Origin: Alistipes sp.
GTDB taxonomy: Bacteria > Bacteroidota > Bacteroidia > Bacteroidales > Rikenellaceae
Length of the DNA stretch: 61,649 bases
Direction of reading: 5' to 3'
NCBI GenBank assembly: GCA_017505725.1
Contig: JAFVOR010000019.1
Span: 1-61,649, forward strand
The first letter of the stretch is position 1. Every line of letters starts with the position of its first letter. Below the pieces are notes generated by a model. It had not been told where the DNA came from and did no database searches. It saw only the letters and a list, made by a program, of their open reading frames with translations. Positions 7,551-41,283 of this stretch are shown here, piece after piece. A program made the translations under genes and the position numbers.

Positions 7551-7620
7551 GTTTTCCACTCCAAGCGAAAATCGTAAAAACTTTACAAGTTTTCCGCTTT
7601 CCGCTTTCCGTTTTCCGTTT
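7551..7620 (+). repeat. Promoter-proximal 70-bp repeat, copy 1, with heptamer array
   Basis: Near-copy of 36950-37016. Order in both: TTTTCCACTCCAAGCGAAAATCG, then a small hairpin (AAAACTT-tac-AAGTTTT here), then four heptamers TTTCCGC, TTTCCGC, TTTCCGT, TTTCCGT (7591-7618), then the -7 promoter box of the following gene. The rest of the 7422-7550 gap holds a short hairpin (CTTGC-ttc-GCAAG at 7471-7483) and no gene. Confidence 0.85.
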
Positions 7621-7628
7621 ATTTTTTC

Positions 7629-7667: not shown

Positions 7668-8867
7668 ATGCCAAAGATTTCAGAACGAGCTGTGTTGATG
7701 CCATCATCGCCTATCCGCCGTTTGGCTCCACTTGCCGAGGAGGCAAAGAAGAGGGGAACAAAGGTCTACTACCTGAATATCGGTCAGCCCGATATCAAGA
7801 CTCCGCAGGTGGCACTCGATGCCATCCGCAACATCGATCGCGAGATTTTGGAGTATAGTCCGAGCGATGGTTTCCTCTCGCTCCGCGAGAAGCTGGTGGG
7901 CTACTACGACCAATACCAAATCAAGCTTACGCCCGACGATATCATTGTCACTGCGGGCGGCTCGGAGGCGGTGTTGTTCGCCTTTATGTCGTGTCTGAAT
8001 CCGGGAGACGAAATTATCGTTCCCGAGCCTGCCTACGCCAACTATATGGCATTTGCAGTCTCGGCAGGTGCGGTGATTCGCCCAATTACCTCGTCTATCG
8101 ACAATGGATTTGCCTTGCCTTCGATTGAGCAGTTCGAGGAGCTTATCAACGAGCGCACTCGAGGCATCCTCATCTGTAATCCAAACAACCCTACGGGCTA
8201 TCTCTACACCCGCAAGGAGATGAACCGCATCCGCGACTTGGTCAAGAAGTACGATCTATTCCTCTTCTCGGATGAGGTATATCGTGAGTTTATCTACACA
8301 GGCTCGCCATATATCTCGGCTTGCCACTTGGAGGGTATCGAGGATAATGTCGTGCTTATCGATTCGGTGTCGAAACGCTACTCTGAATGTGGTATCCGCA
8401 TCGGAGCGCTCATTACCAAGAATAAGACATTGCGTGCTGCGGTGATGAAGTTCTGTCAGGCACGCCTTTCACCTCCGTTGCTTGGTCAGATTGCGGCCGA
8501 GGCGTCGATTGATGCACCGCGCGAGTATGCCATCCACACCTACGAGGAGTATATCGAGCGTCGCAACTGTCTGGTTGACGAGCTGAATAAGATTGATGGT
8601 GTCTACTCGCCAATCCCTATGGGTGCATTCTATACGATTGCCCGCTTGCCAATCGACGATAGCGACAAGTTCTGCGAGTGGTGTCTGCGTGAGTTTGAGT
8701 ACGAAGGCGCAACTGTGATGCTCGCCCCGGCATCGGGTTTCTACTCCGAGCCAGGTTTAGGTAAGGATGAGGTGCGTATCGCCTACATCCTCGAAAAATC
8801 CGAGCTCAAAAAAGCAATCCGCATACTCGGCAAAGCAATCGAGAAGTATAACGAAATTAATAAATAA
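7668..8867 (+). CDS. Class I/II pyridoxal-phosphate aminotransferase
   Basis: A 399-aa cytoplasmic fold-type I aminotransferase of the AspC/AAT type. Visible motifs are YYLNIGQPDIKTP near the N-terminus, the substrate/PLP contacts NPNNPTGYLY, the SDEVYREF strand, and the PLP Schiff-base lysine in DSVSKRYSECG (Lys236 counted from this ATG), followed by the conserved arginine in GIRIG. Aspartate or a broad amino-acid substrate range is likely; exact specificity cannot be assigned. The ATG at 7668 was chosen because an upstream GTG (7638) falls inside the promoter. The downstream gene rarA is separated by a decamer repeat. Confidence 0.9.
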   Translation: MPKISERAVLMPSSPIRRLAPLAEEAKKRGTKVYYLNIGQPDIKTPQVALDAIRNIDREILEYSPSDGFLSLREKLVGYYDQYQIKLTPDDIIVTAGGSEAVLFAFMSCLNPGDEIIVPEPAYANYMAFAVSAGAVIRPITSSIDNGFALPSIEQFEELINERTRGILICNPNNPTGYLYTRKEMNRIRDLVKKYDLFLFSDEVYREFIYTGSPYISACHLEGIEDNVVLIDSVSKRYSECGIRIGALITKNKTLRAAVMKFCQARLSPPLLGQIAAEASIDAPREYAIHTYEEYIERRNCLVDELNKIDGVYSPIPMGAFYTIARLPIDDSDKFCEWCLREFEYEGATVMLAPASGFYSEPGLGKDEVRIAYILEKSELKKAIRILGKAIEKYNEINK

Positions 8868-8881
8868 AAAATATTGCGCCT

Positions 8882-8931
8882 CCCTTACTGGCCCTTAATA
8901 GCCCTTACTGGCCGTTACTAGCCCTTATAAA
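8882..8931 (+). repeat. Decamer tandem repeat upstream of rarA
   Basis: Five consecutive 10-base units: CCCTTACTGG, CCCTTAATAG, CCCTTACTGG, CCGTTACTAG, CCCTTATAAA. It fills nearly all the space between the aminotransferase and rarA. Very similar units recur at 11641-11710. Confidence 0.92.
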
Positions 8932-8949
8932 TTGGCGCATAAGAAATCT

Positions 8950-10240: not shown

Positions 10241-11176
10241 ATGAAGAGATATGTCTTGTTCTTTGTGGCACTAATCTCTCTGGCAACAGCAATGGCACTA
10301 CCAACACCTACAACTTACTGCTATGTGGAGGGCAAATCCCCTCTCTACCTCGACCACTATCGTGCCGAGGGTTCTGGACAACACAAATGTGCCTTGTTTG
10401 CCTTCGGAGGAGGCTTCTCGCACGGTAATCGTGCCAACGAAAAGTATATGCCCTATTTCGAGATGCTCCTCTCGCAGGGCTTCGATGTGGTATCGATAGA
10501 CTACCGACTCGGTATGGCCTACACCAACGAGAAGAGTGCCGATGTCGGCCCTCTCGAGGGTGCGTGGGCTATGTATCGTGCGGTGAGCAATGCCGCTGAG
10601 GATGTGCTCCGTGCAACCAAGTATCTGCTCGACCATAGTGCAGAGCTGGGCATCGACACCTCCTGTATTGTGGCTACGGGCTCGAGTGCGGGTGCCATAT
10701 CTGTGTTGCAGGCCGAGAACTACATCTCCAACCGCTCTGGTTATGCCAAGCAACTCCCTGCCGACTTCAACTTTGCCGGCGTGGTGGCCTTTGCGGGCGC
10801 TATCTATTCGGTGCTTAGCGAGCCCGATTGGGATGCCACCCCTTGCCCTATAATGCTCTTCCACGGTAATGCCGATCGCAATGTGCCGTATCGCAAGGCG
10901 ACCATCCTCGCCACTGGCTTCTATGGCTCCGACTATATTGCCGAGCAACTTCACAGTATAGGTGCAACCTACTATTTCCACTCCGCGCACTATCGTGACC
11001 ACTCCCTCGCAGTATCGCCTATGACCGACAATCATTCCGAGATTATCAACTTCCTCTCCCGTTGTGTCCTCTCTAATGAATTTATGCAGCACACCAACGA
11101 GTTTGTCGACGAGACTCTCGAACCGTGTCAGACCGAATTTACCATTCAGGAGTATCTGAACACCAACTACAGTTAA
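10241..11176 (+). CDS. Secreted alpha/beta-hydrolase (esterase-like)
   Basis: A 311-aa protein with a signal peptide (about 1-19). The alpha/beta-hydrolase triad is visible: Ser149 in TGSSAG, Asp212 in HGNADRNVPY and His254 in YRDHSLA, with an oxyanion-hole GGGF at about 56-59. The layout fits carboxylesterase/lipase-like enzymes of the BD-FAE/acetyl-esterase type; the substrate is unknown. It follows rarA by 16 bases without its own visible promoter. A long-hairpin repeat begins directly at its stop codon, probably forming the transcript's 3' end. Confidence 0.82.
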   Translation: MKRYVLFFVALISLATAMALPTPTTYCYVEGKSPLYLDHYRAEGSGQHKCALFAFGGGFSHGNRANEKYMPYFEMLLSQGFDVVSIDYRLGMAYTNEKSADVGPLEGAWAMYRAVSNAAEDVLRATKYLLDHSAELGIDTSCIVATGSSAGAISVLQAENYISNRSGYAKQLPADFNFAGVVAFAGAIYSVLSEPDWDATPCPIMLFHGNADRNVPYRKATILATGFYGSDYIAEQLHSIGATYYFHSAHYRDHSLAVSPMTDNHSEIINFLSRCVLSNEFMQHTNEFVDETLEPCQTEFTIQEYLNTNYS

Positions 11177-11300
11177 AAATCGTTCTGATGGGTAAATTTT
11201 GCACTGCACTGCGGATGTCGAAATGCTCACATACCTTTTAGTATGCTCCGCTTTCGCCACCTAGCTTAGCACAAAATTTCCACCATCATTTACGATTTTT
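11177..11300 (+). repeat. Long-hairpin repeat, copy A1 (full)
   Basis: Starts on the base after the esterase stop codon. Outer stem AAAATCGT / ACGATTTT, second stem GATG/CATC plus AAATTT/AAATTT, middle stem CGAAA/TTTCG, and apical stem CATAC/GTATG around a 6-base loop. Member of a family of seven full and four partial copies in the window. Confidence 0.92.
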
Positions 11301-11311
11301 TTGTTGTGGAA

Positions 11312-11431
11312 TGTTCTGATGGGTAAATTTTGCACGAGCGCGTCGGACTCCAAATTCCTCACATAGCTTTACTATGCTGCGGATTTGTCGCCTAGCGTCG
11401 CACAAAATTTCCTCCATCATTTACGATTTTT
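11312..11431 (+). repeat. Long-hairpin repeat, copy A2 (full)
   Basis: Same plan as A1; the apical stem is CATAG/CTATG and the middle stem CAAAT/ATTTG. The left outer arm has drifted (AATGT) while the right arm keeps ACGATTTTT. Confidence 0.9.
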
Positions 11432-11441
11432 AGGGCTGTGG

Positions 11442-11490
11442 CAAATTGTTCTGATGGGTAAATTTTGCACTGCACTGCGGTCAAGGCGCA
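11442..11490 (+). repeat. Long-hairpin repeat, copy A3 (5' partial)
   Basis: Begins AAATTGTTCTGATGGG and breaks off after CTGCGG, before the apical stem. Copy D3 breaks at the same point. Confidence 0.85.
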
Positions 11491-11572: not shown

Positions 11573-11613
11573 AATATTAAGGGTTATTAAAGGTTATTAA
11601 AGGCTATTAAGGG
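11573..11613 (+). repeat. Decamer tandem repeat (TTATTAA-type)
   Basis: Units GGGTTATTAA, AGGTTATTAA and AGGCTATTAA with a partial unit on each side. It resembles the reverse complement of the CCCTTAnnnn decamers nearby. Confidence 0.85.
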
Positions 11614-11640
11614 AGCGCTACAAGCAAAAGAAAAAAACAT

Positions 11641-11710
11641 TAATCACCCTTAACACTCCTTAACTACCCTTACCAGCCCTTACTGGCCCTTACTAGCCTT
11701 TACTCGCCTT
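11641..11710 (+). repeat. Decamer tandem repeat (TAnnnnCCyT, seven units)
   Basis: Seven exact 10-base periods, including TACCAGCCCT, TACTGGCCCT and TACTAGCCTT. Same family as 8882-8931. Confidence 0.92.
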
Positions 11711-11796
11711 AAAAAAATAATTTTTAATTCCCCAGTAACTCCCAGAGCCGAAGGCAAAGCCTGGCAGGCTTAATAAAGCCCGTCGCCATTACCCAC

Positions 11797-13049: not shown

Positions 13050-14978
13050 CTACTTCGAGGTGTAAGGTCCGTGTATCGATTTAACTCTATATTCGAAGTT
13101 TCCATCGTCGAGCATATATACATAGAACTCTCCGCCACCCGGGGTAACACGCAGTGCAATGTGTCCGCTATGACCGGCCAATTTGGCATAGGTATCACCA
13201 TTTTCGATGAGTGCTTCAGGGTGTGCGTTGGTGGTGAATACCTGATTTGTAACATTGAATACCGTATTGTTCAACAAATCGATGTCGGGCTGTTTTTTGT
13301 AGAAGTTATGATTGAGCACTACGGTTGGGAACATGTAGTTTTGCATCTGTCCGCCCCAACTATTGCTGCTCAAGTGATGACCGCCCTTCAGTGCGTCGAG
13401 CTTGGTGCCATCGGCGCAATCGCGGAAGTAGTATGCCATTCTGTTCTGCGGAGCGCTAGTTATGTCGCCTGCCGAGACATAGTCGAAATTGCCATATTTG
13501 AGGTAGAATCCGCACGATGCAGGGTTGCCCGGGTCGCCCTTCGAACCATTTCTTTTAGGTGTAGTTGCACCCGTCTTGATGTAGTAACCATAGCCATTTC
13601 CGCAGATGTTGAAGGTCTTGAAATTGCTATATCTATCCTTGTTGTAGAGTAATATAATCTGCTCTTTTCCGACTGTGAAGCGTGCTCCCTGCAACTTATT
13701 ATTTTGCTCACCGTGTTTGATAAAGATGCGCCAATCTTGGATAATTAAACTGTCGGCAATCGAAGGGACTTGCGTCTCCTCCACATAGTTTGGATAGGCT
13801 CTGTCGAGAATATTGCGGAACGGTATCTCATCGTAGAGTGCCATAGGGCCGATTTTGCGATAACCGATAGGGCTCATCTCCGCCTCCCAGCGGTGGTCGC
13901 CAAAGTGGTCGATATGGAAGTGCGAAATGTGGAGGTAATCAATCTCGCTCTTGCCCTCAGGTATAAAGTGCCTGATGTAGTTGGCGTAGGTCTTGTATGG
14001 TCGCACCTCGTCGTTCGGACGGTGAGGCACGCGAGTCTCGGCGCTGAACAACGGCGAGAGTTCGCCCACATCCACCACCATAGTCGTGCCATCGGGCAGA
14101 ACATAGAAGGCGCACTCGCCACTACCGCTATTAATCATATGTATATCGAGATAGCCCTCGCTCCACTGTGGCAGAGGTTTGCCAATCTCGACATCGCTTG
14201 TGCTATCGGCCTTATATTGGATTGGTGTCGTAAATTCGCGTATATCGCCCGCAACGAGTGGTCTATCTTCGGTTGCACGCACTCGCTTGGCCATCACGCC
14301 ACCTTCGTTGTCGTAGATGCGGATGTTGAGTAGCGGATAGTCGCCTGCAGGCACTGCAATGTGGATGTAGGTGGGTGTCGAGGCATCGAGCTTCACACCC
14401 TCGCCAAGCGAGTAGTTGATAATGCTTTTGGCATCGGCACTTGGCGTTACTGCGCCACTCTCGAAGTCGATGTCAAACTCACCCGCAATGGGTGTGTAGT
14501 CGGCTGACGATAGGCGCACCTTTGTGATGGTTGCCGAGCCCACAATGCCGAATTTTAGCACCCCTGTCAAGTGGTGCAACTCACTACCCGTGCCATACAT
14601 TGTCGATACACCTTGTCCGAAGGTCGTGTTGCCGGTATAGTGCTGATTCTCTGCGAAAAGCACCTTGTTTGCCGAGGCTGCAGGGTAGGCTATATGACGA
14701 CTCTCGCCCACCTCTCCATTGATGGTGAAGGTTGCGCGAGAGGGGTTCTCGGTGTCGATTACTGCAGCGGCCGACTCCACGCCATTGACCGAGATCTTGT
14801 CGCCCTCGCTCCAATATAGCGGATAGATGCCATCGGCCTTCTCGCCGAGCTGGGTGCGTCTCTGCTCGAGCGACAATGTTATAGAGGTGGCGGTCGCCTC
14901 GATGCTCTCTGTCGGTGCAACACACGATAAGGCAATGAACAATGAAATAATTGCTATGTAAATCTTGCGGAAGATCAA
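13050..14978 (-). CDS. Lipoprotein: fimbrillin-like domain fused to a metallo-beta-lactamase-fold domain
   Basis: A 642-aa predicted lipoprotein (lipobox ending at Cys19). Residues about 25-255 form a fimbrillin-like domain (LGEKADGIYPLYWSEGD, HHLTGVLKF, VAGDI), clearly related to the N-terminus of the 1398-aa protein at 57412-61608. Residues about 265-642 are a metallo-beta-lactamase fold with the metal motif HFHIDH (His353, His355, Asp357, His358) and a later GGHH; it resembles ComEC/Rec2-type MBL hydrolases. The C-terminus GGGEFYVYMLDDGNFEY is shared with the next gene upstream. Likely an outer-membrane-anchored hydrolase of unknown substrate. It starts 4 bases after the stop of its paralogue, so the pair is an operon. 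Confidence 0.85.
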   Translation of the reverse strand: MIFRKIYIAIISLFIALSCVAPTESIEATATSITLSLEQRRTQLGEKADGIYPLYWSEGDKISVNGVESAAAVIDTENPSRATFTINGEVGESRHIAYPAASANKVLFAENQHYTGNTTFGQGVSTMYGTGSELHHLTGVLKFGIVGSATITKVRLSSADYTPIAGEFDIDFESGAVTPSADAKSIINYSLGEGVKLDASTPTYIHIAVPAGDYPLLNIRIYDNEGGVMAKRVRATEDRPLVAGDIREFTTPIQYKADSTSDVEIGKPLPQWSEGYLDIHMINSGSGECAFYVLPDGTTMVVDVGELSPLFSAETRVPHRPNDEVRPYKTYANYIRHFIPEGKSEIDYLHISHFHIDHFGDHRWEAEMSPIGYRKIGPMALYDEIPFRNILDRAYPNYVEETQVPSIADSLIIQDWRIFIKHGEQNNKLQGARFTVGKEQIILLYNKDRYSNFKTFNICGNGYGYYIKTGATTPKRNGSKGDPGNPASCGFYLKYGNFDYVSAGDITSAPQNRMAYYFRDCADGTKLDALKGGHHLSSNSWGGQMQNYMFPTVVLNHNFYKKQPDIDLLNNTVFNVTNQVFTTNAHPEALIENGDTYAKLAGHSGHIALRVTPGGGEFYVYMLDDGNFEYRVKSIHGPYTSK

Positions 14979-14982
14979 CTCT

Positions 14983-16227
14983 TTATCTCGATTTGTATGG
15001 TCCGTGAATCGATTTTACTCTGTACTCGAAGTCGCCATCGTCGAGCATATAGACATAGAACTCTCCACCACCGGGTGCCACTCGCAACACTATGTGTCCG
15101 TTGTAGGCCGTAATCTTCTCTACGAGATTGTTTGCCTTCAGCTCGGGAATATTTACGAAATCTTTGTGGAGGTTTGTAGTGAAGAAACCCTCGATGACGG
15201 GCAATACGTGCATCAACTTCTTGACATCGGGCTTGTTGAGTGTGAAGCTGTGGTTGAGCACTACGCGAGGGTTGAAGTTGAGCTCCTGCATCCTCGATCC
15301 CCACGAATTGCCCGCCAAGTGGTGGTTTGCCTTGAATGCGTCGAGCTTGCCCTCGCCCACAAAGTCGCGGAAGTAGTATGCCAAGCGGTTTTGTGTGCTG
15401 CTGACAAGGTCGCCACAAGCGATATAGTCGAATGCTCCGTAGCGGATGTGAAAGCCGCACGAAGAGGGGTTACCTCCGACCAATGTCTTGCTCTCCACAA
15501 CTCGCTCTACGCCGCTGTTTGTCCTCTGCCAGATAGCGCCATTGGCGCAGATGTTGAATATCGAGAACTCCTTGTGAGCCTTGGGGTTATTGAGCATCTT
15601 GATCTGCTCCTCGCCCGCGAGGAAACGAGCTGCAGTGAATCTCCTCTTCTTGACTCCCCAGGTGACAAACTTTGCCCAATCTTGCGAGAGCTGACCACTT
15701 AGAGCAGGTGTGATCTCATCTTCGGTGTAGTTAGGGTAGGCTCGGTCGAGGATGTGGTTGTAGGGCACCTCGTCGTAGAGTGCCAACAAGCCCGACTTGC
15801 GATAGCCTGCGGGCGATGTGCCAACCACGCAACTCTCACTACCTATGTGGTCGGTGTGGAAGTGCGATGGCGAGCAGTAGTCGATAGCCTCCTTGCCCTC
15901 GGGCAGGAAGTGCTTGATATACTTTGCGTAGGTTATATATGGCTTGGTCTCGGCATTTGGCCGCTGAGGTACGCTGGTCCCGCTGTCGCCCACCTCGCCT
16001 GCATCTACAAGCAGTGTGGTGCCATCGGGCAGGATGTAGAAACAACACTCGCCACGCGCACTATTTATGAAGTGTATGTCGAGGCAACCTTCGCTCCACG
16101 ATGGGAGGGTGGTGCCAACCTCAACCTTTGCAACCTCGGTTTTCGAACCTCTCTTTGCCGGTTTGGCTTGGCAGATGCCGCCGCCCAAAATGGTTGAAAT
16201 AATCAAAACAGTGAGTAATTTTCTCAT
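14983..16227 (-). CDS. Secreted metallo-beta-lactamase-fold hydrolase
   Basis: A 414-aa paralogue of the downstream MBL fusion without the fimbrillin-like part. It has a signal peptide (about 1-21), metal-binding HFHTDH (His122, His124, Asp126, His127), and FKANHHLAGNSWG as the second histidine site. Alignment by eye runs from PSWSEGCLDIHFINS to the last residues GPYKSR, and DNA similarity is still visible in the last 150 bases of both genes, so the tandem pair arose by duplication. The substrate is unknown. A TATTTTTG box at 16268-16275 probably drives the pair. Confidence 0.85.
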   Translation of the reverse strand: MRKLLTVLIISTILGGGICQAKPAKRGSKTEVAKVEVGTTLPSWSEGCLDIHFINSARGECCFYILPDGTTLLVDAGEVGDSGTSVPQRPNAETKPYITYAKYIKHFLPEGKEAIDYCSPSHFHTDHIGSESCVVGTSPAGYRKSGLLALYDEVPYNHILDRAYPNYTEDEITPALSGQLSQDWAKFVTWGVKKRRFTAARFLAGEEQIKMLNNPKAHKEFSIFNICANGAIWQRTNSGVERVVESKTLVGGNPSSCGFHIRYGAFDYIACGDLVSSTQNRLAYYFRDFVGEGKLDAFKANHHLAGNSWGSRMQELNFNPRVVLNHSFTLNKPDVKKLMHVLPVIEGFFTTNLHKDFVNIPELKANNLVEKITAYNGHIVLRVAPGGGEFYVYMLDDGDFEYRVKSIHGPYKSR

Positions 16228-29223: not shown

Positions 29224-31242
29224 ATGAGATATAACAAGATAGTATCAATTTTTGCGTGTGCGGTATTGGCCCTTGCCTCGTGTGTGAACGAGAGTGAGGC
29301 TTTGCGTGTGGAGAGTCCATCGCAGGGTGAGGCCTACGCTGCAGGGGAGTTGTTCGTGAAGTTCACCCCCGAGGTTGCCGCTCTGGTCGAGGCTTCGGGC
29401 GTTGTGCGCTCCGATGCTACACGCAGCGGTGTGACGAGTGTCGACGAGCTGCTCAATCTGATTGGTGGCTTCGAGCTCTCGCGAGTATTCCCCGTAGATC
29501 CTCGCCACGAGGAGCGCACTGTGCGTGATGGCTTGAACTGCTGGTACCTGGTGCGATATAGCAATGACTACACCGCCGAGGATGTGGCAAGACGCTTCTC
29601 GGCTTTGGGCGAGGTGCAGAATACCGATATCAACCGCACCATCAAGCGTGCCAACACCCGTAAGGCTACTCCGCTTTCGGAGGAGAGTGTGCAGTCGGCT
29701 ACACGCGCTTTGCAGGGCAAGTTCAACGATCCGCTCTACTCGCTGCAGTGGAATATCGAGAACGATGGCGAGATGGCTGAACTTGGTGGCAAGGCGAAGG
29801 CCGGTGCCGATGTTCAGGTTGTCGAGGCTTGGGAGCGCAGCAAGGGCGATGAGTCTATCATCGTGGCGGTGCTCGACGAGGGTATCTATTGGGAGCATCC
29901 CGATTTGAGGGCAAACATCTGGGTCAACAAGGACGAGGATGGCGGCTGGTTCGACGACAAAGATGGCAATGGCTACGAGGGCGATAAGCACGGCTATAAC
30001 TTTGTCTACGATACGGGCAAGATTACTTGGGATAATTACTACGATTCGGGACACGGAACACACGTAGCAGGAACTATCGCTGCGGTCAATAACAATGGCG
30101 AGGGCGTAAGCTCTATTGCAGGTGGCGATGGCTCGAAAGATAGCGGCGTGAAGATTATGGTGTGCCAGATATTCTCGGGCAACATCTCGACAGGCCTCTA
30201 CAATGTGGTGCGTGCTATGAAGTATGCTGCCGACAACGGTGCGGTAGTGTTGCAGTGTAGCTGGGGTTACACCTCGGGCTCGGCTAACCCATACGATTGG
30301 GGTGAGGCGGGCTTCGCTACCGAGGAGGAGTGGATTGCGGGCTCGCCAATCGAGAAGGAGGCGCTCGACTACTTTATCCACAATGCAGGCTCGCCTAATG
30401 GCGTGATTGATGGCGGTATTGCAGTCTTCGCTGCAGGTAACGAGAATGCCCCTTCGGCGGGCTTCCCGGGTGCTGCCGACTATTGCATCTCGGTGGCGGC
30501 AACATCGGCCGACTTCACCCCAGCAACCTACACAAACTATGGTCCGGGTACAACGCTCTCGGCTCCAGGTGGTGATCAGGACTACCACTTCGACTACTTC
30601 AACCCCGAGAGTGGCAAGTATGGCGAGAGAGGTTGCATCCTCTCGACACTTCCTTACCACGTCAGCAAGACGGGCTATGGCTTCTTTGAGGGCACTTCGA
30701 TGGCTTGTCCTCACGTCTCGGGAGTAGTGGCACTCGGACTCTCCTATGCTACCAAGTTGCGTAAGCACTTCACAGCCGAGGAGTATCGCAAGATGGTTAT
30801 CGAGGCCGTTGAGCCTATCGACAAATATATGACAGGCTATAAACTCTACAACCGCTATGTTGCCGATATCGGTGCATTGCAGCCGATGCAGATGGCTCTT
30901 GCTCCATATCGTGGGGCAATGGGCTCGGGACAGATCAGTGCCAAGAAGTTGCTCGCTGCAATAGATGGCAAGGATGCTGGCACACAGATGCACTTCCCTA
31001 ACCTCTCTATCAAGGTGGGCGATAGCATCGAGGTCGATGCAAGCCGCTACTTCGTGGGTGGTGAGGGGTTGACCTACACCATAACTATCGAGGATAACTT
31101 GGTGGCAACATTCCAGCAGGAGGGTGCAAAGTTTACCTTCTACGGAAAGAAGAGTGGCGTAACCAAGGGCTCAATCAGCGCAAGTAATGGCCAGGTGCAT
31201 AACTTTACTATAACAGTTCGCAAGTCGAGCGGCTGGTTGTAA
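29224..31242 (+). CDS. S8-family (subtilisin-like) serine protease lipoprotein
   Basis: A 672-aa surface or periplasmic protease (lipobox ending at Cys20). An N-terminal prodomain (about 35-145, GELFVKFTPEV) precedes the catalytic domain: Asp218 (AVLDEG), His277 (GHGTHVAGT), Asn406 (FAAGN) and Ser492 (GTSMACPHVSG). A C-terminal Ig-like domain (about 590-672) follows. All catalytic residues are intact. The ATG at 29224 is preferred to the GTG at 29215, giving MRYNKIVSIF as the leader. As the enzyme of the SusC/SusD/LRR operon, it probably cuts proteins before peptide uptake. A long-hairpin repeat starts at its stop codon. Confidence 0.92.
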   Translation: MRYNKIVSIFACAVLALASCVNESEALRVESPSQGEAYAAGELFVKFTPEVAALVEASGVVRSDATRSGVTSVDELLNLIGGFELSRVFPVDPRHEERTVRDGLNCWYLVRYSNDYTAEDVARRFSALGEVQNTDINRTIKRANTRKATPLSEESVQSATRALQGKFNDPLYSLQWNIENDGEMAELGGKAKAGADVQVVEAWERSKGDESIIVAVLDEGIYWEHPDLRANIWVNKDEDGGWFDDKDGNGYEGDKHGYNFVYDTGKITWDNYYDSGHGTHVAGTIAAVNNNGEGVSSIAGGDGSKDSGVKIMVCQIFSGNISTGLYNVVRAMKYAADNGAVVLQCSWGYTSGSANPYDWGEAGFATEEEWIAGSPIEKEALDYFIHNAGSPNGVIDGGIAVFAAGNENAPSAGFPGAADYCISVAATSADFTPATYTNYGPGTTLSAPGGDQDYHFDYFNPESGKYGERGCILSTLPYHVSKTGYGFFEGTSMACPHVSGVVALGLSYATKLRKHFTAEEYRKMVIEAVEPIDKYMTGYKLYNRYVADIGALQPMQMALAPYRGAMGSGQISAKKLLAAIDGKDAGTQMHFPNLSIKVGDSIEVDASRYFVGGEGLTYTITIEDNLVATFQQEGAKFTFYGKKSGVTKGSISASNGQVHNFTITVRKSSGWL

Positions 31243-31363
31243 AATCGTTCTGATTGACTCTTTTTGCACAAGTCGTCGGACGCCGAAATGCCCACATAGC
31301 TCTACTATGCTCCGCATTCGTCGCCTAGCCTTGCACAAAAATAGTTCAATCATTGACGATTTT
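31241..31363 (+). repeat. Long-hairpin repeat, copy B1 (full)
   Basis: Begins within the TAA stop of the subtilase gene. Outer stem AAAATCGT/ACGATTTT, second stem GATTGA/TCAATC, apical stem CATAG/CTATG. Confidence 0.92.
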
Positions 31364-31370
31364 AGTAGTT

Positions 31371-31420
31371 GAATTTGTTCTGATTGACTCTTTTTGCACA
31401 AGTCGTCGGACGCCGAAATG
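31371..31420 (+). repeat. Long-hairpin repeat, copy B2 (5' partial)
   Basis: Identical to B1 for about 45 bases, then breaks off after CCGAAATG, 13 bases before the ATG of the DUF1573 gene. Confidence 0.9.
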
Positions 31421-31432
31421 GTCACGAAAGAT

Positions 31433-36067: not shown

Positions 36068-36088
36068 AAATGCAAAATGCAAAATGGG
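36068..36088 (+). repeat. Heptamer tandem repeat (AAATGCA)
   Basis: Units AAATGCA, AAATGCA, AAATGGG, directly before a decamer array. Confidence 0.75.
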
Positions 36089-36090
36089 AT

Positions 36091-36155
36091 TAGATAGGAT
36101 TAGATAGGATTAGATGGGATTAGATGGGATTAGATGGGATTAGATGGGATTAGAT
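36091..36155 (+). repeat. Decamer tandem repeat (TAGATGGGAT)
   Basis: Two TAGATAGGAT units followed by TAGATGGGAT units, in exact 10-base register, running into the 60-bp direct repeat. Confidence 0.92.
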
Positions 36156-36212
36156 GCCTTTTCCTATTAAATCCTATCAAGCACCGCAGGTGAGTTTCCT
36201 ATCAAATCCTAT
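36153..36212 (+). repeat. 60-bp direct repeat, left copy
   Basis: Begins GATGCCTTTTCCTATTAAAT and includes a small hairpin CACC-gca-GGTG. It matches 36849-36908 at 57 of 60 positions by eye. The two copies bracket the four-helix-bundle gene and its promoter. Confidence 0.92.
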
Positions 36213-36284: not shown

Positions 36285-36833
36285 ATGAAAACCTTCCACT
36301 CAAATAGCGGTAGCTATCGTAAACTGAAGGCCTATTGCAAGGCAGAGGTTATCTACGACCTCACCTATTACTTCTGCGAAAACTATCTTAAGCGAGGCGA
36401 CCGCACTATCGATCAAATGGTGCAAGCGGCGCGCTCAGGCAAGCAGAATATCGTCGAGGGTAATGCCGTGGCAACAACTTCTACCGAAACTTTTTTGAAA
36501 CTTTTGGGCGTGGCAAGAGGAAGCTTACAAGAGTTGTTAAAGGACTACGAAGATTATCTGCGAGTGCGTAATTTGCGATTGTGGGAGCCCAACTCTGTTG
36601 AGGTTGATGCAATGCGAAGGCTCGGCATAGAACACGAGAAGAGTGAATATTTTCTTTCGTTGGCGCAAACTCGTAGCGATGAGGTCGTTGCCAATATGGT
36701 TATAGTGTTGATATATCAAGCCGATACTTTGCTCAATGTCTACATACAAAAGCACTATAATAAATTCCTGCAAGAGGGAGGATTTCGAGAGAAACTAACC
36801 AGGGAACGGTTGTCTTGTCGTGACCATAAATAG
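36285..36833 (+). CDS. Four-helix-bundle protein (23S rRNA intervening-sequence / Avd-like family)
   Basis: A 182-aa helical protein. The pattern KAYCKAEVIYDLTYYFC, DRTIDQMVQAARSGKQNIVEG, LLGVARGSLQELLKDYEDYL and the C-terminal FLQEGGFREKLTRERL are those of the IVS-encoded four-helix-bundle family, which also includes the Avd accessory proteins of diversity-generating retroelements. Here it is not inside an rRNA gene and no reverse transcriptase is present. It is bracketed by a 60-bp direct repeat, with a decamer array outside the left copy, which suggests a cassette-like insertion. A TTG start at 36249 would overlap the promoter, so the ATG at 36285 is used. Its role as a stand-alone gene is unknown. 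Confidence 0.88.
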   Translation: MKTFHSNSGSYRKLKAYCKAEVIYDLTYYFCENYLKRGDRTIDQMVQAARSGKQNIVEGNAVATTSTETFLKLLGVARGSLQELLKDYEDYLRVRNLRLWEPNSVEVDAMRRLGIEHEKSEYFLSLAQTRSDEVVANMVIVLIYQADTLLNVYIQKHYNKFLQEGGFREKLTRERLSCRDHK

Positions 36834-36848
36834 GATTTGATGGGAGAG

Positions 36849-36908
36849 GATGCCTTTTCCTATTAAATCCTATCAAGCACCGCTGGTGCGTTTCCTATCA
36901 AGTCCTAT
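36849..36908 (+). repeat. 60-bp direct repeat, right copy
   Basis: Same sequence as 36153-36212 with three substitutions; the hairpin reads CACC-gct-GGTG. It begins 16 bases after the four-helix-bundle stop codon. CCTATCAA fragments continue to about 36930. Confidence 0.92.
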
Positions 36909-36949
36909 CGCATCCTATCAAATCTCACAAACTTCTATTAAAACTAAAA

Positions 36950-37016
36950 GTTTTCCACTCCAAGCGAAAATCGAAAAACTAAAAGTTTTCCGCTTTCCGC
37001 TTTCCGTTTTCCGTTT
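36950..37016 (+). repeat. Promoter-proximal 70-bp repeat, copy 2, with heptamer array
   Basis: Copy of 7551-7620. The hairpin reads AAAACT-aaa-AGTTTT, and the four heptamers (36987-37014) come in the same order TTTCCGC, TTTCCGC, TTTCCGT, TTTCCGT. It ends at the nusB -7 box. Confidence 0.88.
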
Positions 37017-37023
37017 TATTTCT

Positions 37024-37067: not shown

Positions 37068-38006
37068 ATGTTGAGCAGAAGAATACTCAGAACAAAGGTC
37101 GTAAAGGCGGTCTACGCGCACACGCAGTGCGAGGGTATCACGCCCGTAGCAAGCGAGAAGAATCTCGTCACATCCATCAACAAAGCCTACGACCTATATT
37201 TCCACCTACTCGCTCTCGTTCCCGAGATTGCCGAGTATGCTGCCGAGCGTATCCGCATCGGCGAGAACAAGAAGTTGCCTACATACGATGACCTCCACCC
37301 AAACCGCAAATTTGTCGACAACAAGGTGATTGCACGCCTTGTCGGAGATGAGGGTTTGCAGGCGGAGATTTCTGCACGAAAATTGTCGTGGAAGGATAAT
37401 CGCGACCTTATCGTGGCACTCTACAACGCCTTGGTGCGTCAGCCATTCTATATGAAGTATATGGCATCCGACGACCATTCGTTCCGCGAGGATGCGCAAC
37501 TTGTGTCGGATATCTATATGACTATGCTCGAGGAGTTCGAGCCACTCGAGAGCGCACTCGAGGCGCAGTCGATTCTCTGGAACGACGACCTCGGCTTCAT
37601 CCTCACTATGGTGTCGCGTACCATTCTCTCGATGCGCGAGAGCCACGAGGAGGTCAAGCTGATGGAGCAGTTCAAGAGCGAGGATGACCTCGACTATGCC
37701 AAGACATTGCTCCGCTATGCTATCGCGGGTTACGAGCGCATCTCGCTTCTGCTCGACAACTCATTGCAGAATTGGGATATCGAGCGTGTGGCATTGATGG
37801 ATCAGATTATCCTCATCACCGCTATAGCCGAGGCTGAGAGCTTCCCATCGATACCGGTGCGTGTTACTATGAACGAGTATATCGATATCGCCAAGTGCTA
37901 CTCGACACTATCGAGCGGTGGCTTTATCAATGGTATCCTCGACCGCATTATCTCGCAACTTGTCGACGAGGGTAAGATAGTGAAGTCAGGCAAAGGCCTG
38001 TTATAA
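37068..38006 (+). CDS. nusB: Transcription antitermination factor NusB (long Bacteroidetes form)
   Basis: A 312-aa all-helical protein. The N-terminus MLSRRILRTKVVKAVYAH and the C-terminal NusB core (NWDIERVALMDQIILITAIAE, IPVRVTMNEYIDIAKCYS, GGFINGILDRI) are diagnostic. The length is roughly twice that of E. coli NusB because of an insertion of about 150 residues, as is usual in Bacteroidetes. It acts with NusE/S10 in rRNA antitermination. yajC lies downstream, the conserved gene order in this group, but here three hairpin-repeat copies intervene. Confidence 0.92.
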   Translation: MLSRRILRTKVVKAVYAHTQCEGITPVASEKNLVTSINKAYDLYFHLLALVPEIAEYAAERIRIGENKKLPTYDDLHPNRKFVDNKVIARLVGDEGLQAEISARKLSWKDNRDLIVALYNALVRQPFYMKYMASDDHSFREDAQLVSDIYMTMLEEFEPLESALEAQSILWNDDLGFILTMVSRTILSMRESHEEVKLMEQFKSEDDLDYAKTLLRYAIAGYERISLLLDNSLQNWDIERVALMDQIILITAIAEAESFPSIPVRVTMNEYIDIAKCYSTLSSGGFINGILDRIISQLVDEGKIVKSGKGLL

Positions 38007-38129
38007 ATTGTTCTGATTGGCTCTTTTTGCACGAGCACGGCGGTCGCCAAAATGCTCACATAGCTCTACTATGCTCCGCATTCGTCGCCTAGCCTTGCAC
38101 AAAAATAGCTCAATCATAGACAATTTATA
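38004..38129 (+). repeat. Long-hairpin repeat, copy C1 (full)
   Basis: Begins in the nusB stop codon. Outer stem ATAAATTGT/ACAATTTAT, second stem GATTG/CAATC, TTTTTGCA/TGCAAAAA-type third stem, apical CATAG/CTATG. Confidence 0.93.
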
Positions 38130-38135
38130 GTGTTG

Positions 38136-38261
38136 AAAAATCGTTCTGATAAGTTCTTTTTGCACGAATCTTCGGATAACAAAATGCTCACATACCTCAA
38201 AGTATGCTCCGCTTTTGTTCCCTCGCTTCGCACAAAAATAATCTTATCATTTACGATTTTT
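38136..38261 (+). repeat. Long-hairpin repeat, copy C2 (full)
   Basis: Outer stem AAAAATCGT/ACGATTTTT, second stem GATAAG/CTTATC, middle stem AACAAAA/TTTTGTT, apical CATAC/GTATG. Every stem differs from C1 or D1 but still pairs. Confidence 0.93.
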
Positions 38262-38265
38262 CGGG

Positions 38266-38352
38266 AAAATCGTTCTGATGAGTAAATTTTGCACGAGCAC
38301 TGCGGATGTCGAAATGCTTAGCACAAAAATAGCTCAATCATCTCCGATTTAC
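38266..38352 (+). repeat. Long-hairpin repeat, copy C3 (internal deletion)
   Basis: Keeps both outer arms (AAAATCG and CGATTT) but has lost the apical stem and half of the middle stem after GAAATGCT. The 402-bp nusB-yajC gap contains only these repeats and the heptamer array that follows. Confidence 0.85.
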
Positions 38353-38370
38353 AGGGCTTTATTGAAATGA

Positions 38371-38405
38371 TAATTTTTAATTTTTAACTTTTAATTTTTA
38401 ATTTC
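38371..38405 (+). repeat. Heptamer tandem repeat (TAATTTT) before yajC
   Basis: Five heptamers TAATTTT/TAACTTT ending 3 bases before the yajC ATG. Confidence 0.88.
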
Positions 38406-38408
38406 GTT

Positions 38409-38717
38409 ATGATTACACTTTTGCAAGCAGCTCAGGCTGCACAGAATGGTAGCAACTGGTCGTTCTGGGTAATGATTGTTGCGATGATTGCCATTATGTA
38501 CTTCTTTATGATTCGTCCCGAGCAGAAGCGCCGCAAGGAGATGCAGGCATTCCGCGAAGGTCTCAAGTCGGGCGACAAGGTTATCACCGCAGGCGGTATC
38601 TACGCTGTTGTAAAGAAGGTTGAGGAGACCACTCTCCTTATCGAGGTGGACAGCAATGTCACTCTTCGTGTCGACAAGAATATGGTAGTGGCTGCTCCTG
38701 CTCCTCAGCAGAAATAG
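38409..38717 (+). CDS. yajC: Preprotein translocase subunit YajC
   Basis: A 102-aa inner-membrane protein with a single membrane segment (about 18-37) followed by the family signature FFMIRPEQKRRKEMQAF and GDKVITAGGIYAVV. It works with SecDF in the Sec translocon. The start follows a heptamer array by 3 bases. A GNRA-loop hairpin lies 45 bases downstream. Confidence 0.95.
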   Translation: MITLLQAAQAAQNGSNWSFWVMIVAMIAIMYFFMIRPEQKRRKEMQAFREGLKSGDKVITAGGIYAVVKKVEETTLLIEVDSNVTLRVDKNMVVAAPAPQQK

Positions 38718-38859: not shown

Positions 38860-40974
38860 ATGAAGAGACTTATTCTTGCAATTGTTGCTCTTGCTGTAGC
38901 TACTACGTCGTTCGCTGCAAAGAAGAGCGAGATGATGTCGTGGGATGAGGCTACCCTCAAGGCTAACGAGGTGTTGGCAACACTCTCTCTCGAGGAGAAA
39001 CTCGAGATGACTCACGGTCACAACAAATTCTTCCTTCCGGGTGCTCCTGCAAAGGGCCTTCCACACGTATTTATGGTGGATGCATCGGCAGGTGTGCGTA
39101 TCAACCACTCGTTGCCTGTACCTGAGGAGGTGCGTCATCCGGAGAAGACTACACAGTTCCCTGCAAATATTTCGCTCGCTTCGACCTTCAACCCCGAGTT
39201 GGCAAAGGCCTATGGTGAGGCTGTAGGTTACGAGACCCGTATGGCAGGTGCAGGCGTGTTGCTCGGTCCAGGTATGAACATCTATCGTTCGGCTCAGTGT
39301 GGTCGTAACTTCGAGTACCTCGGCGAGGATCCATACTTGGCTGCTCGTATGGTCGAGAACTATGTTGTAGGTATGCAGGGTACAGGTACAATGGCTTGCT
39401 TGAAGCACTTCCTCTGCAACAACACCGAGTTCTACCGCAAACTATCGAACTCAATCGTTGACGAGCGTGCTATTATGGAGATCTACACCCCTGCTTTCAA
39501 GGCAGGTATCGACGCAGGTGCAGGTTCGGTAATGACTGCCTACAACCAGCTCAATGGCGAGTGGTGTGGTCAGAGCAAGTATGTTATCACCGACCTCTTG
39601 CGTGGTACACTCGGCTTCAAGGGCTTGGTAATGACCGACTGGCGTTCGGTATACGACTGGAAGAAGCTCGTTCTCTCGGGCCAGAATGTCGAGATGCCTG
39701 GTACACCTAACGAGTTCTACCACATCAACAATATTCGCGATTTGATGGCTAAAGGTGAGCTCACCGAGAAGAATATCGACGATATGATTCGCCCGATGAT
39801 TGCCACTTGCATCCGCTTCGGCTTGTACGAGCGTTTCAAGAATGGTCAGCCAAACGAAGAGGCTCTCGAGGAGAAGTTCCCTCGTCACGAGGAGATCTCT
39901 TACCAGACTGCTGCCGAGGGTGCAGTGTTGTTGAAGAACAATGGTATCCTTCCGTTGAAGCAGGGCAAGAATGTCTTGCTCGTAGGTCGTTGGGCAAAGA
40001 CCGCTCCGCAGGGTGGTGGTTCGTCGAAGGTTAAGGGCTTCAACCAGGTTACATCTGAGCAGGCACTCCTCAACTCGCTTCGCGCAAAGGTTACTGCTAT
40101 CGAGAAGCCAAACTTCATTCAGTTGCAGAAGGCTGAGGTTGTGATTGTAGCCACAGGAACATACGATAGCGAGGGTACAGAGCGTCCATTCCAGATGGAA
40201 GAGGAGGATGAGGCTTTGGTGCGTATGGCTTGCGCTGCCAACAAGAATGTCGTCGTGCTTGTTCTCTCGGGTTCGGGTATCGATATGAGCGCTTGGAACG
40301 ACAAGGTTTCGGCTATCATCTACGGATGGTATCCTGGTCAGAGCGGTATGCAGGCTATTGCCGACATTATGGTTGGTAAGGTTAACCCATCGGGTAAGTT
40401 GCCTGCAACAATCGAGAAGAAGTTTAAGGATTCGCCTGCATATGGTATGATTCCAACTGGCGTATCACTCCGCAAGGCAAAGGGCAACCCTAACGAGTTG
40501 TGGTTTGCTCCAAAGACCTACGATGTGCACTACAGCGAGTCGGTGTTGGTGGGCTATCGTTGGTACGAGGCTAAGAATATCGAGCCTCTCTACCCATTTG
40601 GCTTCGGCCTTTCGTACACCACATTCGAGTTTGGTAAGGCAAAGGCTGCAAAGCAGATTTCGGCCGAGAAGCCACTCAAGGTAACTGTTCGCTTGCAGAA
40701 TACAGGTAAGATGGCGGGTGCCGAGGTTGTTCAACTCTATGTTCAGGAGGATAGACCTACCGTGCTCCGTCCGAAGAAGGAGCTCAAGGCCTTCAAGAAG
40801 GTGCACCTCGAGGCTGGTGAAAAGACCACCGTTACCTTCGAGTTGAACCACTCGGATTTGGCCTTTTGGAACGACAAGACACACGCTTGGGATGTGAACA
40901 AGGGTACCTACACAATCCACATCGGTAACTCGTCGGCTAATATTGCGCAGACTCTTACCGTTGAAGCCTTGTAA
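38860..40974 (+). CDS. Secreted GH3 glycoside hydrolase (beta-glucosidase type)
   Basis: A 704-aa enzyme with a signal peptide (about 1-19). The GH3 N-terminal barrel carries LKHF and the nucleophile Asp260 in GLVMTDWRS; the alpha/beta C-terminal domain follows (ILPLKQGKNVLLVGRWA), and a fibronectin-III-like domain closes the protein (VRLQNTGKMAGAEVVQLYV). The usual pattern of three domains is complete. Likely a periplasmic beta-glucosidase or beta-xylosidase; the sugar specificity cannot be fixed. It is not beside any SusC/SusD genes. A long-hairpin repeat starts directly after the stop codon. Confidence 0.9.
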   Translation: MKRLILAIVALAVATTSFAAKKSEMMSWDEATLKANEVLATLSLEEKLEMTHGHNKFFLPGAPAKGLPHVFMVDASAGVRINHSLPVPEEVRHPEKTTQFPANISLASTFNPELAKAYGEAVGYETRMAGAGVLLGPGMNIYRSAQCGRNFEYLGEDPYLAARMVENYVVGMQGTGTMACLKHFLCNNTEFYRKLSNSIVDERAIMEIYTPAFKAGIDAGAGSVMTAYNQLNGEWCGQSKYVITDLLRGTLGFKGLVMTDWRSVYDWKKLVLSGQNVEMPGTPNEFYHINNIRDLMAKGELTEKNIDDMIRPMIATCIRFGLYERFKNGQPNEEALEEKFPRHEEISYQTAAEGAVLLKNNGILPLKQGKNVLLVGRWAKTAPQGGGSSKVKGFNQVTSEQALLNSLRAKVTAIEKPNFIQLQKAEVVIVATGTYDSEGTERPFQMEEEDEALVRMACAANKNVVVLVLSGSGIDMSAWNDKVSAIIYGWYPGQSGMQAIADIMVGKVNPSGKLPATIEKKFKDSPAYGMIPTGVSLRKAKGNPNELWFAPKTYDVHYSESVLVGYRWYEAKNIEPLYPFGFGLSYTTFEFGKAKAAKQISAEKPLKVTVRLQNTGKMAGAEVVQLYVQEDRPTVLRPKKELKAFKKVHLEAGEKTTVTFELNHSDLAFWNDKTHAWDVNKGTYTIHIGNSSANIAQTLTVEAL

Positions 40975-41100
40975 AAAATTGTTCTGATTGGTAAATTTTG
41001 CACTGCTCATCGGATGGCGAAATGCTCACATAGCTCTACTATGCTCCGCTTTCGCCACCTCGTTTAGCACAAAATTTCCTCAATCATTGACAATTTTTAG
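40975..41100 (+). repeat. Long-hairpin repeat, copy D1 (full)
   Basis: Starts on the base after the GH3 stop. Outer stem AAAAATTGT/ACAATTTTT, second GATTG/CAATC, third AAATTTTGC/GC-AAAATTT, middle GGCGAAA/TTTCGCC, apical CATAG/CTATG. Confidence 0.93.
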
Positions 41101-41109
41101 TGCAGAAGA

Positions 41110-41232
41110 TTTGTTCTGATTGGCTCTTTTTGCACAAGTCGTCGGTCGCCAAAATGCTCACATAGCTCTACTATGCTCCGCATTCGTCGCCTAGCCTTGC
41201 ACAAAAATAGCTCAATCATTGACAATTTTTAG
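41110..41232 (+). repeat. Long-hairpin repeat, copy D2 (full)
   Basis: Close to C1 in sequence. The linkers D1-D2 and D2-D3 (GCAGAAGAT) are nearly the same, giving a tandem unit of about 131 bp. Confidence 0.92.
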
Positions 41233-41239
41233 CGCAGAA

Positions 41240-41283
41240 GATCTGTTCTGATTGGCTCTTTTTGCACGAGCGCTGCGGCTTAG
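41240..41283 (+). repeat. Long-hairpin repeat, copy D3 (5' partial)
   Basis: Breaks off after GCTGCGG, as copy A3 does. No gene is visible in the remaining gap to 41398. Confidence 0.88.

Follow-up and report, generated by a model that had tools for sequence, protein, structure and literature searches.

A structured family of ERIC-like palindromic repeats abutting stop codons in an Alistipes genome

Several genes of Alistipes sp. contig JAFVOR010000019.1 (assembly GCA_017505725.1) are followed directly by long hairpin repeats, and the question is what these repeats are and how they came to lie there. The window analysed here is the whole stretch of 61,649 nt. A sequence-only reading of it had singled out the interval 38004-38261 and proposed a family of long-hairpin repeats with seven full copies, a proposal that is confirmed: four arrays in the window contain seven full imperfect hairpins of about 127 nt (A1, A2, B1, C1, C2, D1 and D2), together with four incomplete copies, namely three left parts (A3, B2 and D3) and C3, which has no apex. 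The interval originally quoted corresponds to the full copies C1 and C2.

All eleven copies lie on the plus strand, and all four arrays begin at a stop codon, the genes concerned encoding an alpha/beta hydrolase, a subtilase, a NusB-domain protein and a GH3 enzyme. In array A the left end of A1 (11175..11302; 132.4 bits against the covariance model R1, which has 127 positions and was built from 39 copies) overlaps the TAA at 11174-11176 of the gene at 10241-11176, and is followed by A2 (11306..11433; 125.7 bits), a full hairpin whose left outer arm is unpaired in the alignment, and by the left part A3 (11443..11482; nhmmer 1.1e-6, model positions 3-42). B1 (31240..31366; 142.7 bits) begins at the TAA at 31240-31242 of the subtilase gene (assigned by Pfam), with the left part B2 (31372..31425; nhmmer 1.6e-11, positions 3-56) behind it. 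C1 (38003..38130; 127.3 bits) overlaps the TAA at 38004-38006 of the nusB-like gene (Pfam) and is followed by C2 (38136..38263; 145.2 bits) and by C3 (38265..38354; 44 bits), in which a left part is joined to a right part (nhmmer pieces 2-53 and 89-126). D1 (40974..41100; 137.8 bits) begins at the last base of the TAA at 40972-40974 of the GH3 gene (Pfam), followed by D2 (41106..41232; 134.5 bits) and the left part D3 (41239..41280; nhmmer 1.3e-5, positions 2-42). Neighbouring arrays are separated by 3 to 20 kb, and most of these intervals contain several ordinary genes.

The window also holds other repeated sequence. A 10-bp tandem unit (CCTTACTGGC-like) forms two tracts, at 8863-8937 and 11578-11722, partly inverted, one of them beside array A; a second 10-bp tandem repeat, ATGGGATTAG, occupies 36074-36166, with a diverged stretch 696 bases further on at 36827-36935; and a TTTTCCGCTTTCCGTTTTCCG tract occurs twice, at 7584-7625 and 36980-37021, with 93% identity, ACGGAAA tracts resembling it being present at two sites (L157 and L170) of the sister species G005. 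The adjacent minus-strand genes at 13050-14978 and 14983-16227 have repeats in common at a spacing of about 1.93 kb and with 71-82% identity, and are likely to be a tandem duplication.

The variants quoted by the sequence-only reading for the outer, second, middle and apical stems are all present in the sequence, and its claim that differences between copies keep pairing holds generally; an exception that it left unmentioned is A2, in which the left outer arm (GGAATGTTC) and the right arm fail to pair. Sense-strand folding of the seven full copies gives z-scores of -2.7 to -6.8 against dinucleotide shuffles, and among 200 shuffles none folded as well for five of the copies, one for D2 and three for A2. 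When 39 copies from the host genome were fitted to a consensus of 33 pairs, 94.4% of pairs were standard (83.3% after shuffling, 37-45% when the alignment was slid), and two-sided changes were found in 23 of the 33 pairs, against 11.6 after shuffling. The covariation score was 0.333, compared with 0.139 for shuffled alignments and at most 0.098 for slid ones; it was reached in none of 500 shuffles, a count that is not a p-value, since the copies are related and the alignment itself supplied the structure. Covariation extends, as that reading had anticipated, to three helices, which contribute 12, 8 and 3 covarying pairs. Covariation of this strength, on a structure taken from the same alignment, indicates that the pairing constraint is real, and selection on structure rather than on sequence is supported both within the genome (39 copies) and across phyla (40 copies; see below). 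In 82 of 87 copies folding is better for the antisense than for the sense strand, which gives no hint of a sense RNA; counts of G-U against A-C lean to the sense strand (about 34 and 18, respectively). The element is A-rich at its left end and T-rich at its right, and in the folded full copies of the window the T run forms the paired right arm rather than an unpaired tail. No terminator-like site was found in 37900-38450, the stretch scanned.

A search of the host genome with R1 gave 121 matches at E up to 0.01, which bear out the prediction of many genomic matches and represent a lower bound, 150 of 919 first-look candidates having been scored. When the fetched loci and the window were searched, 136 matches were returned, of which 15 were opposite-strand shadows; the remaining 121 form 98 dispersed arrays (78 single, 17 double and 3 triple), so that 20 of the 98 are tandem. 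Rfam gave no match at gathering score anywhere in the 61,649 bases, and none that was credible at E up to 10 in 37960-38420. The earlier statement that the element belongs to no named RNA or REP class therefore stands for Rfam, and also for the GTAG/CGTC REPs, but it needs qualification in that the apical module is common to ERIC-type repeats. No plasmid copies of the window's type were found.

Placement at stop codons is a property of the whole genomic family. With genes called at the arrays by a simple codon-usage gene caller, the gene upstream lies on the same strand in 71 of the 98 arrays and on the opposite strand in 26, one being undetermined. Of the 71 arrays with a co-directional upstream gene, 45 start between -1 and +3 relative to its stop codon and 60 between -9 and +13. 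Out of 67, a 5-nt window would be expected to receive 4.5 if placement were uniform, and 17.1 if a TAA trinucleotide were picked at random. The stop codons of arrays starting at -9 to +3 comprise 46 TAA and 8 TAG. In the relative G015, whose copies are divergent, the fetched stretches contain 26 copies, and 20 of these are found between -4 and +4 relative to the stop codon that ends an open frame of 100 codons or more. The A run is usually preceded, in this genus, by the T of TAA or TAG; the left flank is usually TA(A) and the right often T(A), and no clean target duplication can be read. Such abutment on the sense strand is what would be expected of a cis-acting RNA element of mRNA 3' ends, multiplied by duplication and retained for the sake of the upstream gene, whether as a terminator or as a hairpin acting in processing or stability. 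The compensatory changes and the A-rich left and T-rich right ends are in keeping with this, as are the clustering of stem-loops at 3' ends and the RNA roles of ERIC described in PMC1590033 and PMC2267715. Against it stand the better folding of the antisense strand and the lack of terminator-like sites in the stretch scanned, both noted above.

The orientation of the arrays bears further on this point. On each of the 24 host contigs with at least two arrays, 73 arrays in all, every copy points the same way (log10 P -14.8 if strands were random), and the 26 arrays behind an opposite-strand gene keep the orientation of their contig, which makes replication a likelier cause than transcription and is difficult to reconcile with an element kept for the gene upstream. 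Likewise, 36 of 37 R1 copies in G015 lie on the prevailing strand of their contig; the odd one out is among the five copies on contig C3, and one contig has a single copy. The sign of third-position GC skew marks the leading strand. In G015 the contrast in this skew agrees with the strand of the element in all 20 of the 20-kb stretches sampled, three of them weakly, the stretches being on five contigs and chosen around copies; in the same stretches the cross-phylum core model R2 finds 28 copies, two of them new, with one strand per stretch. For the host the pooled GC3 difference is +0.079, in the same sense as in G015; the per-locus values are noisy (27 of 44 agree), and raw GC skew in the short loci agrees in 43 of 74. 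Mixed orientations were found on five contigs of the relative G001 (C58, C53, C33, C2 and C25) and on at least one of G005 (C81), and in Salinicola and Listeria orientation is mixed along contigs. Taking these data together, we infer that orientation in the host follows the replication fork.

Comparison with G005 bears on the gain and loss of copies. Arrays C and D are missing there at the orthologous sites, where the C-terminal residues and the TAA stop codon are kept; among further orthologous array sites some are empty while others are occupied by different copies, so that copies evidently come and go. At the orthologue of a12/L158, a second-subfamily copy stands at the G005 stop codon with an apparent remnant of a host-type copy downstream of it, and new copies appear to enter at the stop-codon side. 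Site a9/L163 retains an apparent left-end remnant. That several G005 orthologues do without a hairpin also tells against an RNA element kept for its upstream gene, and in view of this and of the strand data that explanation seems to us unlikely. Two routes of entry were set aside. Insertion into existing terminator hairpins was considered, but at seven empty G005 sites inspected by eye (C, D, a11, a13, a15, a17 and a18) the outer stem is absent, which argues that the stem arrives with the element; short A/T complementarities do exist at the empty C and D sites. Target-primed retro-insertion was suspected because three of the four window arrays end in a left part; other arrays also contain right parts and apex deletions, so decay is a sufficient explanation and retro-insertion is unneeded.

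The most conserved part of the element is not confined to Alistipes. The apical module consists of TCA, a 5-bp stem and a CTSC internal loop, and in C2 it (GCTCACATAC..GTATGCTCCGC) lies in a cross-phylum core at 38165..38233 on the plus strand (R2 match, E 3.4e-12), a core that is present in all seven full window copies (E 7.2e-14 to 5.5e-8). The same module is present in Pseudomonas, Halomonas, Listeria and further members of the Bacteroidota, and the exact apex pattern is found in at least 117 stretches from many groups. A looser pattern has 70, 11 and 24 occurrences in three Pseudomonas genomes, 47 in a Salinicola and 62 in a Listeria newyorkensis genome, while its reversed form gave no match in the genomes of these three groups; within the order of the host the looser pattern is found in 29 of 198 genomes, the host included, and the reversed pattern once in each of four. 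Such copies form extended palindromes that share the internal loop, and in 213 of 221 a mismatch position is occupied by T. R1 matches several of them along its entire length, among them one in Pseudomonas (L226, 4e-6) and one in a Tannerellaceae genome (L180, 5e-9); of two Listeria loci one matches weakly (L304, 6e-3) and the other not significantly (L309, 0.3). Among 40 diverse copies the apical pairs are kept in 98.5% of cells while their letters change freely, and the covariation score is 0.484 against 0.186, part of the apex being fixed by the search pattern itself; two-sided changes occur in 15 pairs, a number that 45 of 500 shuffles reach. Many hairpins of other phyla start at stop codons, in both orientations. 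One Pseudomonas copy was found in fifteen plasmid records, with no annotated feature under the match, and in no phage record. An extra insert, GCGGGGCCGCCATCGGTATTGTC, in the right arm distinguishes the Pseudomonas copies L298, L308 and L313 from L318 and L323, and is perhaps a sublineage marker. No description of the module was found in the literature searched, which was judged partly by title and in which subscription papers were mostly outside coverage.

Among known repeats the closest parallel is ERIC (also IRU), of Enterobacteriaceae and Vibrio. ERIC inserts at TA, and its repeats are in wide use for typing; we know of no settled account of its origin or of how it moves. A 44-mer that we take to be the ERIC centre has 32,836 occurrences among 5,404 E. 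coli records. ERIC resembles the Alistipes element in being dispersed and about 127 nt long with one long imperfect hairpin, in carrying the same apical module in one orientation (TCA-CTTAC-TTAT-GTAAG-CTCC), and in the better fold of its opposite strand, seen in both ERIC copies that were folded as it is in Alistipes copies. R2, which was built without ERIC, matches the ERIC apex in all three loci tested (E 2.9e-4, 4.6e-4 and 5.1e-3, the next match being at 0.99); these E-values are rough, the match in L407 covers the apex only, and the three loci are drawn from seven fetched, the remaining four being the same pgk-fbaA place. R1, at E up to 10, found no match in the ERIC loci L406, L407 and L410, and so no similarity beyond the apex. 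Because the apex is common to both and wider similarity to R1 is lacking, the element is best called ERIC-like, and not an ERIC. The differences are that the stem sequences outside the apex are unrelated, that in E. coli the copy at pgk-fbaA begins elsewhere than at the stop codon of pgk, and that 20 of 98 arrays in Alistipes are tandem, with a contig-wide orientation. The size of about 127 bp and the fold as a single long hairpin are given for ERIC in PMC2267715, which also describes regulation of neighbouring genes by Yersinia ERIC as RNA hairpins.

Other families can be compared by their published descriptions. YPAL, Efa-1, Ppu-9 and Bru-RS1/2 are likewise repeated, mostly intergenic and about 100-170 bp long, YPAL and Bru-RS being palindromic (PMC2267715, PMC3163539 and PMC10800456). 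HMP2_4205, a 132-bp palindromic candidate RNA of Bacteroidetes (PMC8040213), is similar in length and in phylum, and differs in being described near TPR genes and as a predicted terminator.

As a mobile element, it might be a MITE moved by a DDE transposase of the IS5 or IS630 type, with a short YTAR/TA target that happens to include stop codons. Short targets of this kind, YTAR or TA, are typical of both types. The T of TAA or TAG that usually precedes the A run in this genus would suit such a target, as would the hairpins of Pseudomonas and Salinicola at stop codons in both orientations. Several copies in these two genera lie between matching 4-base flanks such as CTAG/CTAG, which, judged by eye, may be direct or inverted repeats alike, and two gamma-proteobacterial copies lie between true direct repeats, again by eye: TTAG/TTAG at L301 and TTGA/TTGA at L323. 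For IS711 at Bru-RS1, PMC3163539 reports a YTAR target and duplication of TA. On the other hand, an element with symmetric ends should enter both ways, and each multi-array host contig has one orientation; nor is there a clear target duplication in this genus. We consider this route improbable here. A REP or REPIN mobilised by a RAYT (Y1 HUH) transposase is a much poorer candidate. Repeated intergenic palindromes lying mostly downstream of genes are a feature of GTAG/CGTC REPs too, and single-strand transposition would be expected to leave a replication-like polarity. According to PMC3733652, however, these REPs have stems of 5-13 bp with a tagged foot in palindromes of 20-40 bp, the GTAG types occurring with RAYT, while alignments of the Alistipes element reveal no GTAG/CGTC-tagged short stem in a hairpin of about 127 nt with internal loops. 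A search for Y1_Tnp, the RAYT-type domain, gave no match in 31 genomes of the genus, many of them incomplete, and was positive in 5 of 14 control genomes, and a RAYT origin is accordingly very improbable. Still less credible are integron attC sites or a chromosomal cassette array: attC sites are also asymmetric folded hairpins at gene 3' ends in one orientation, abutment to stop codons and a hairpin maintained by its structure would suit them, and the left end of the second subfamily is GTCTAAC-like, presumably resembling the attC box, but attC has a conserved base and a variable apex, the reverse of what is seen here, and the window arrays are separated by kilobases and mostly by several ordinary genes.

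The combination of stop-codon abutment with a contig-wide, replication-like orientation points to insertion as a mobile DNA hairpin, and the repeats are probably non-autonomous mobile palindromes, MITE-like in character, that form a Bacteroidales branch of an ERIC-like superfamily and insert at TA or stop codons. An enzyme supplied in trans might recognise the hairpin on one strand, exposed as the single-stranded lagging-strand template, and insertion would then occur at TA-containing sites, probably by way of single-stranded DNA at the fork. TAA and TAG stop codons would be the best tolerated and probably the preferred of such sites. Newer copies arriving at the stop-codon side would push older ones downstream to decay, giving the broken distal copies; and once in a 3' untranslated region, the hairpin may tune mRNA stability, by analogy with Yersinia ERIC.

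More tentatively, and with rather more doubt than belief on our part, ERIC itself may be one branch of a single hairpin superfamily that spans Proteobacteria, Bacteroidota and at least one Firmicute and in which a conserved apical internal-loop module is carried on freely changing stems, the insertion in this genus being replication-polar, at stop codons, via the single-stranded lagging-strand template and by an enzyme other than a RAYT. A module common to several phyla gives ERIC relatives, and with relatives to compare, a co-occurring enzyme becomes searchable; one-way orientation and abutment to stop codons place sharp constraints on any mechanism. We regard the family as genuine, a structured mobile repeat family of ERIC-type palindromes, and no enzyme that we found explains its abutment or its orientation: clustering of the neighbours of the host arrays, judged by first residues, revealed no large recurrent protein family, the biggest being beside 6 of the 98. 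Larger recurrent families stand beside the copies of other phyla and of viral contigs. A variant of the core (CTCACGTAC..GTACGCTSCG) is present in 82 viral-contig stretches (L324-L403), with gene families in their neighbourhood shared by up to 23 loci.
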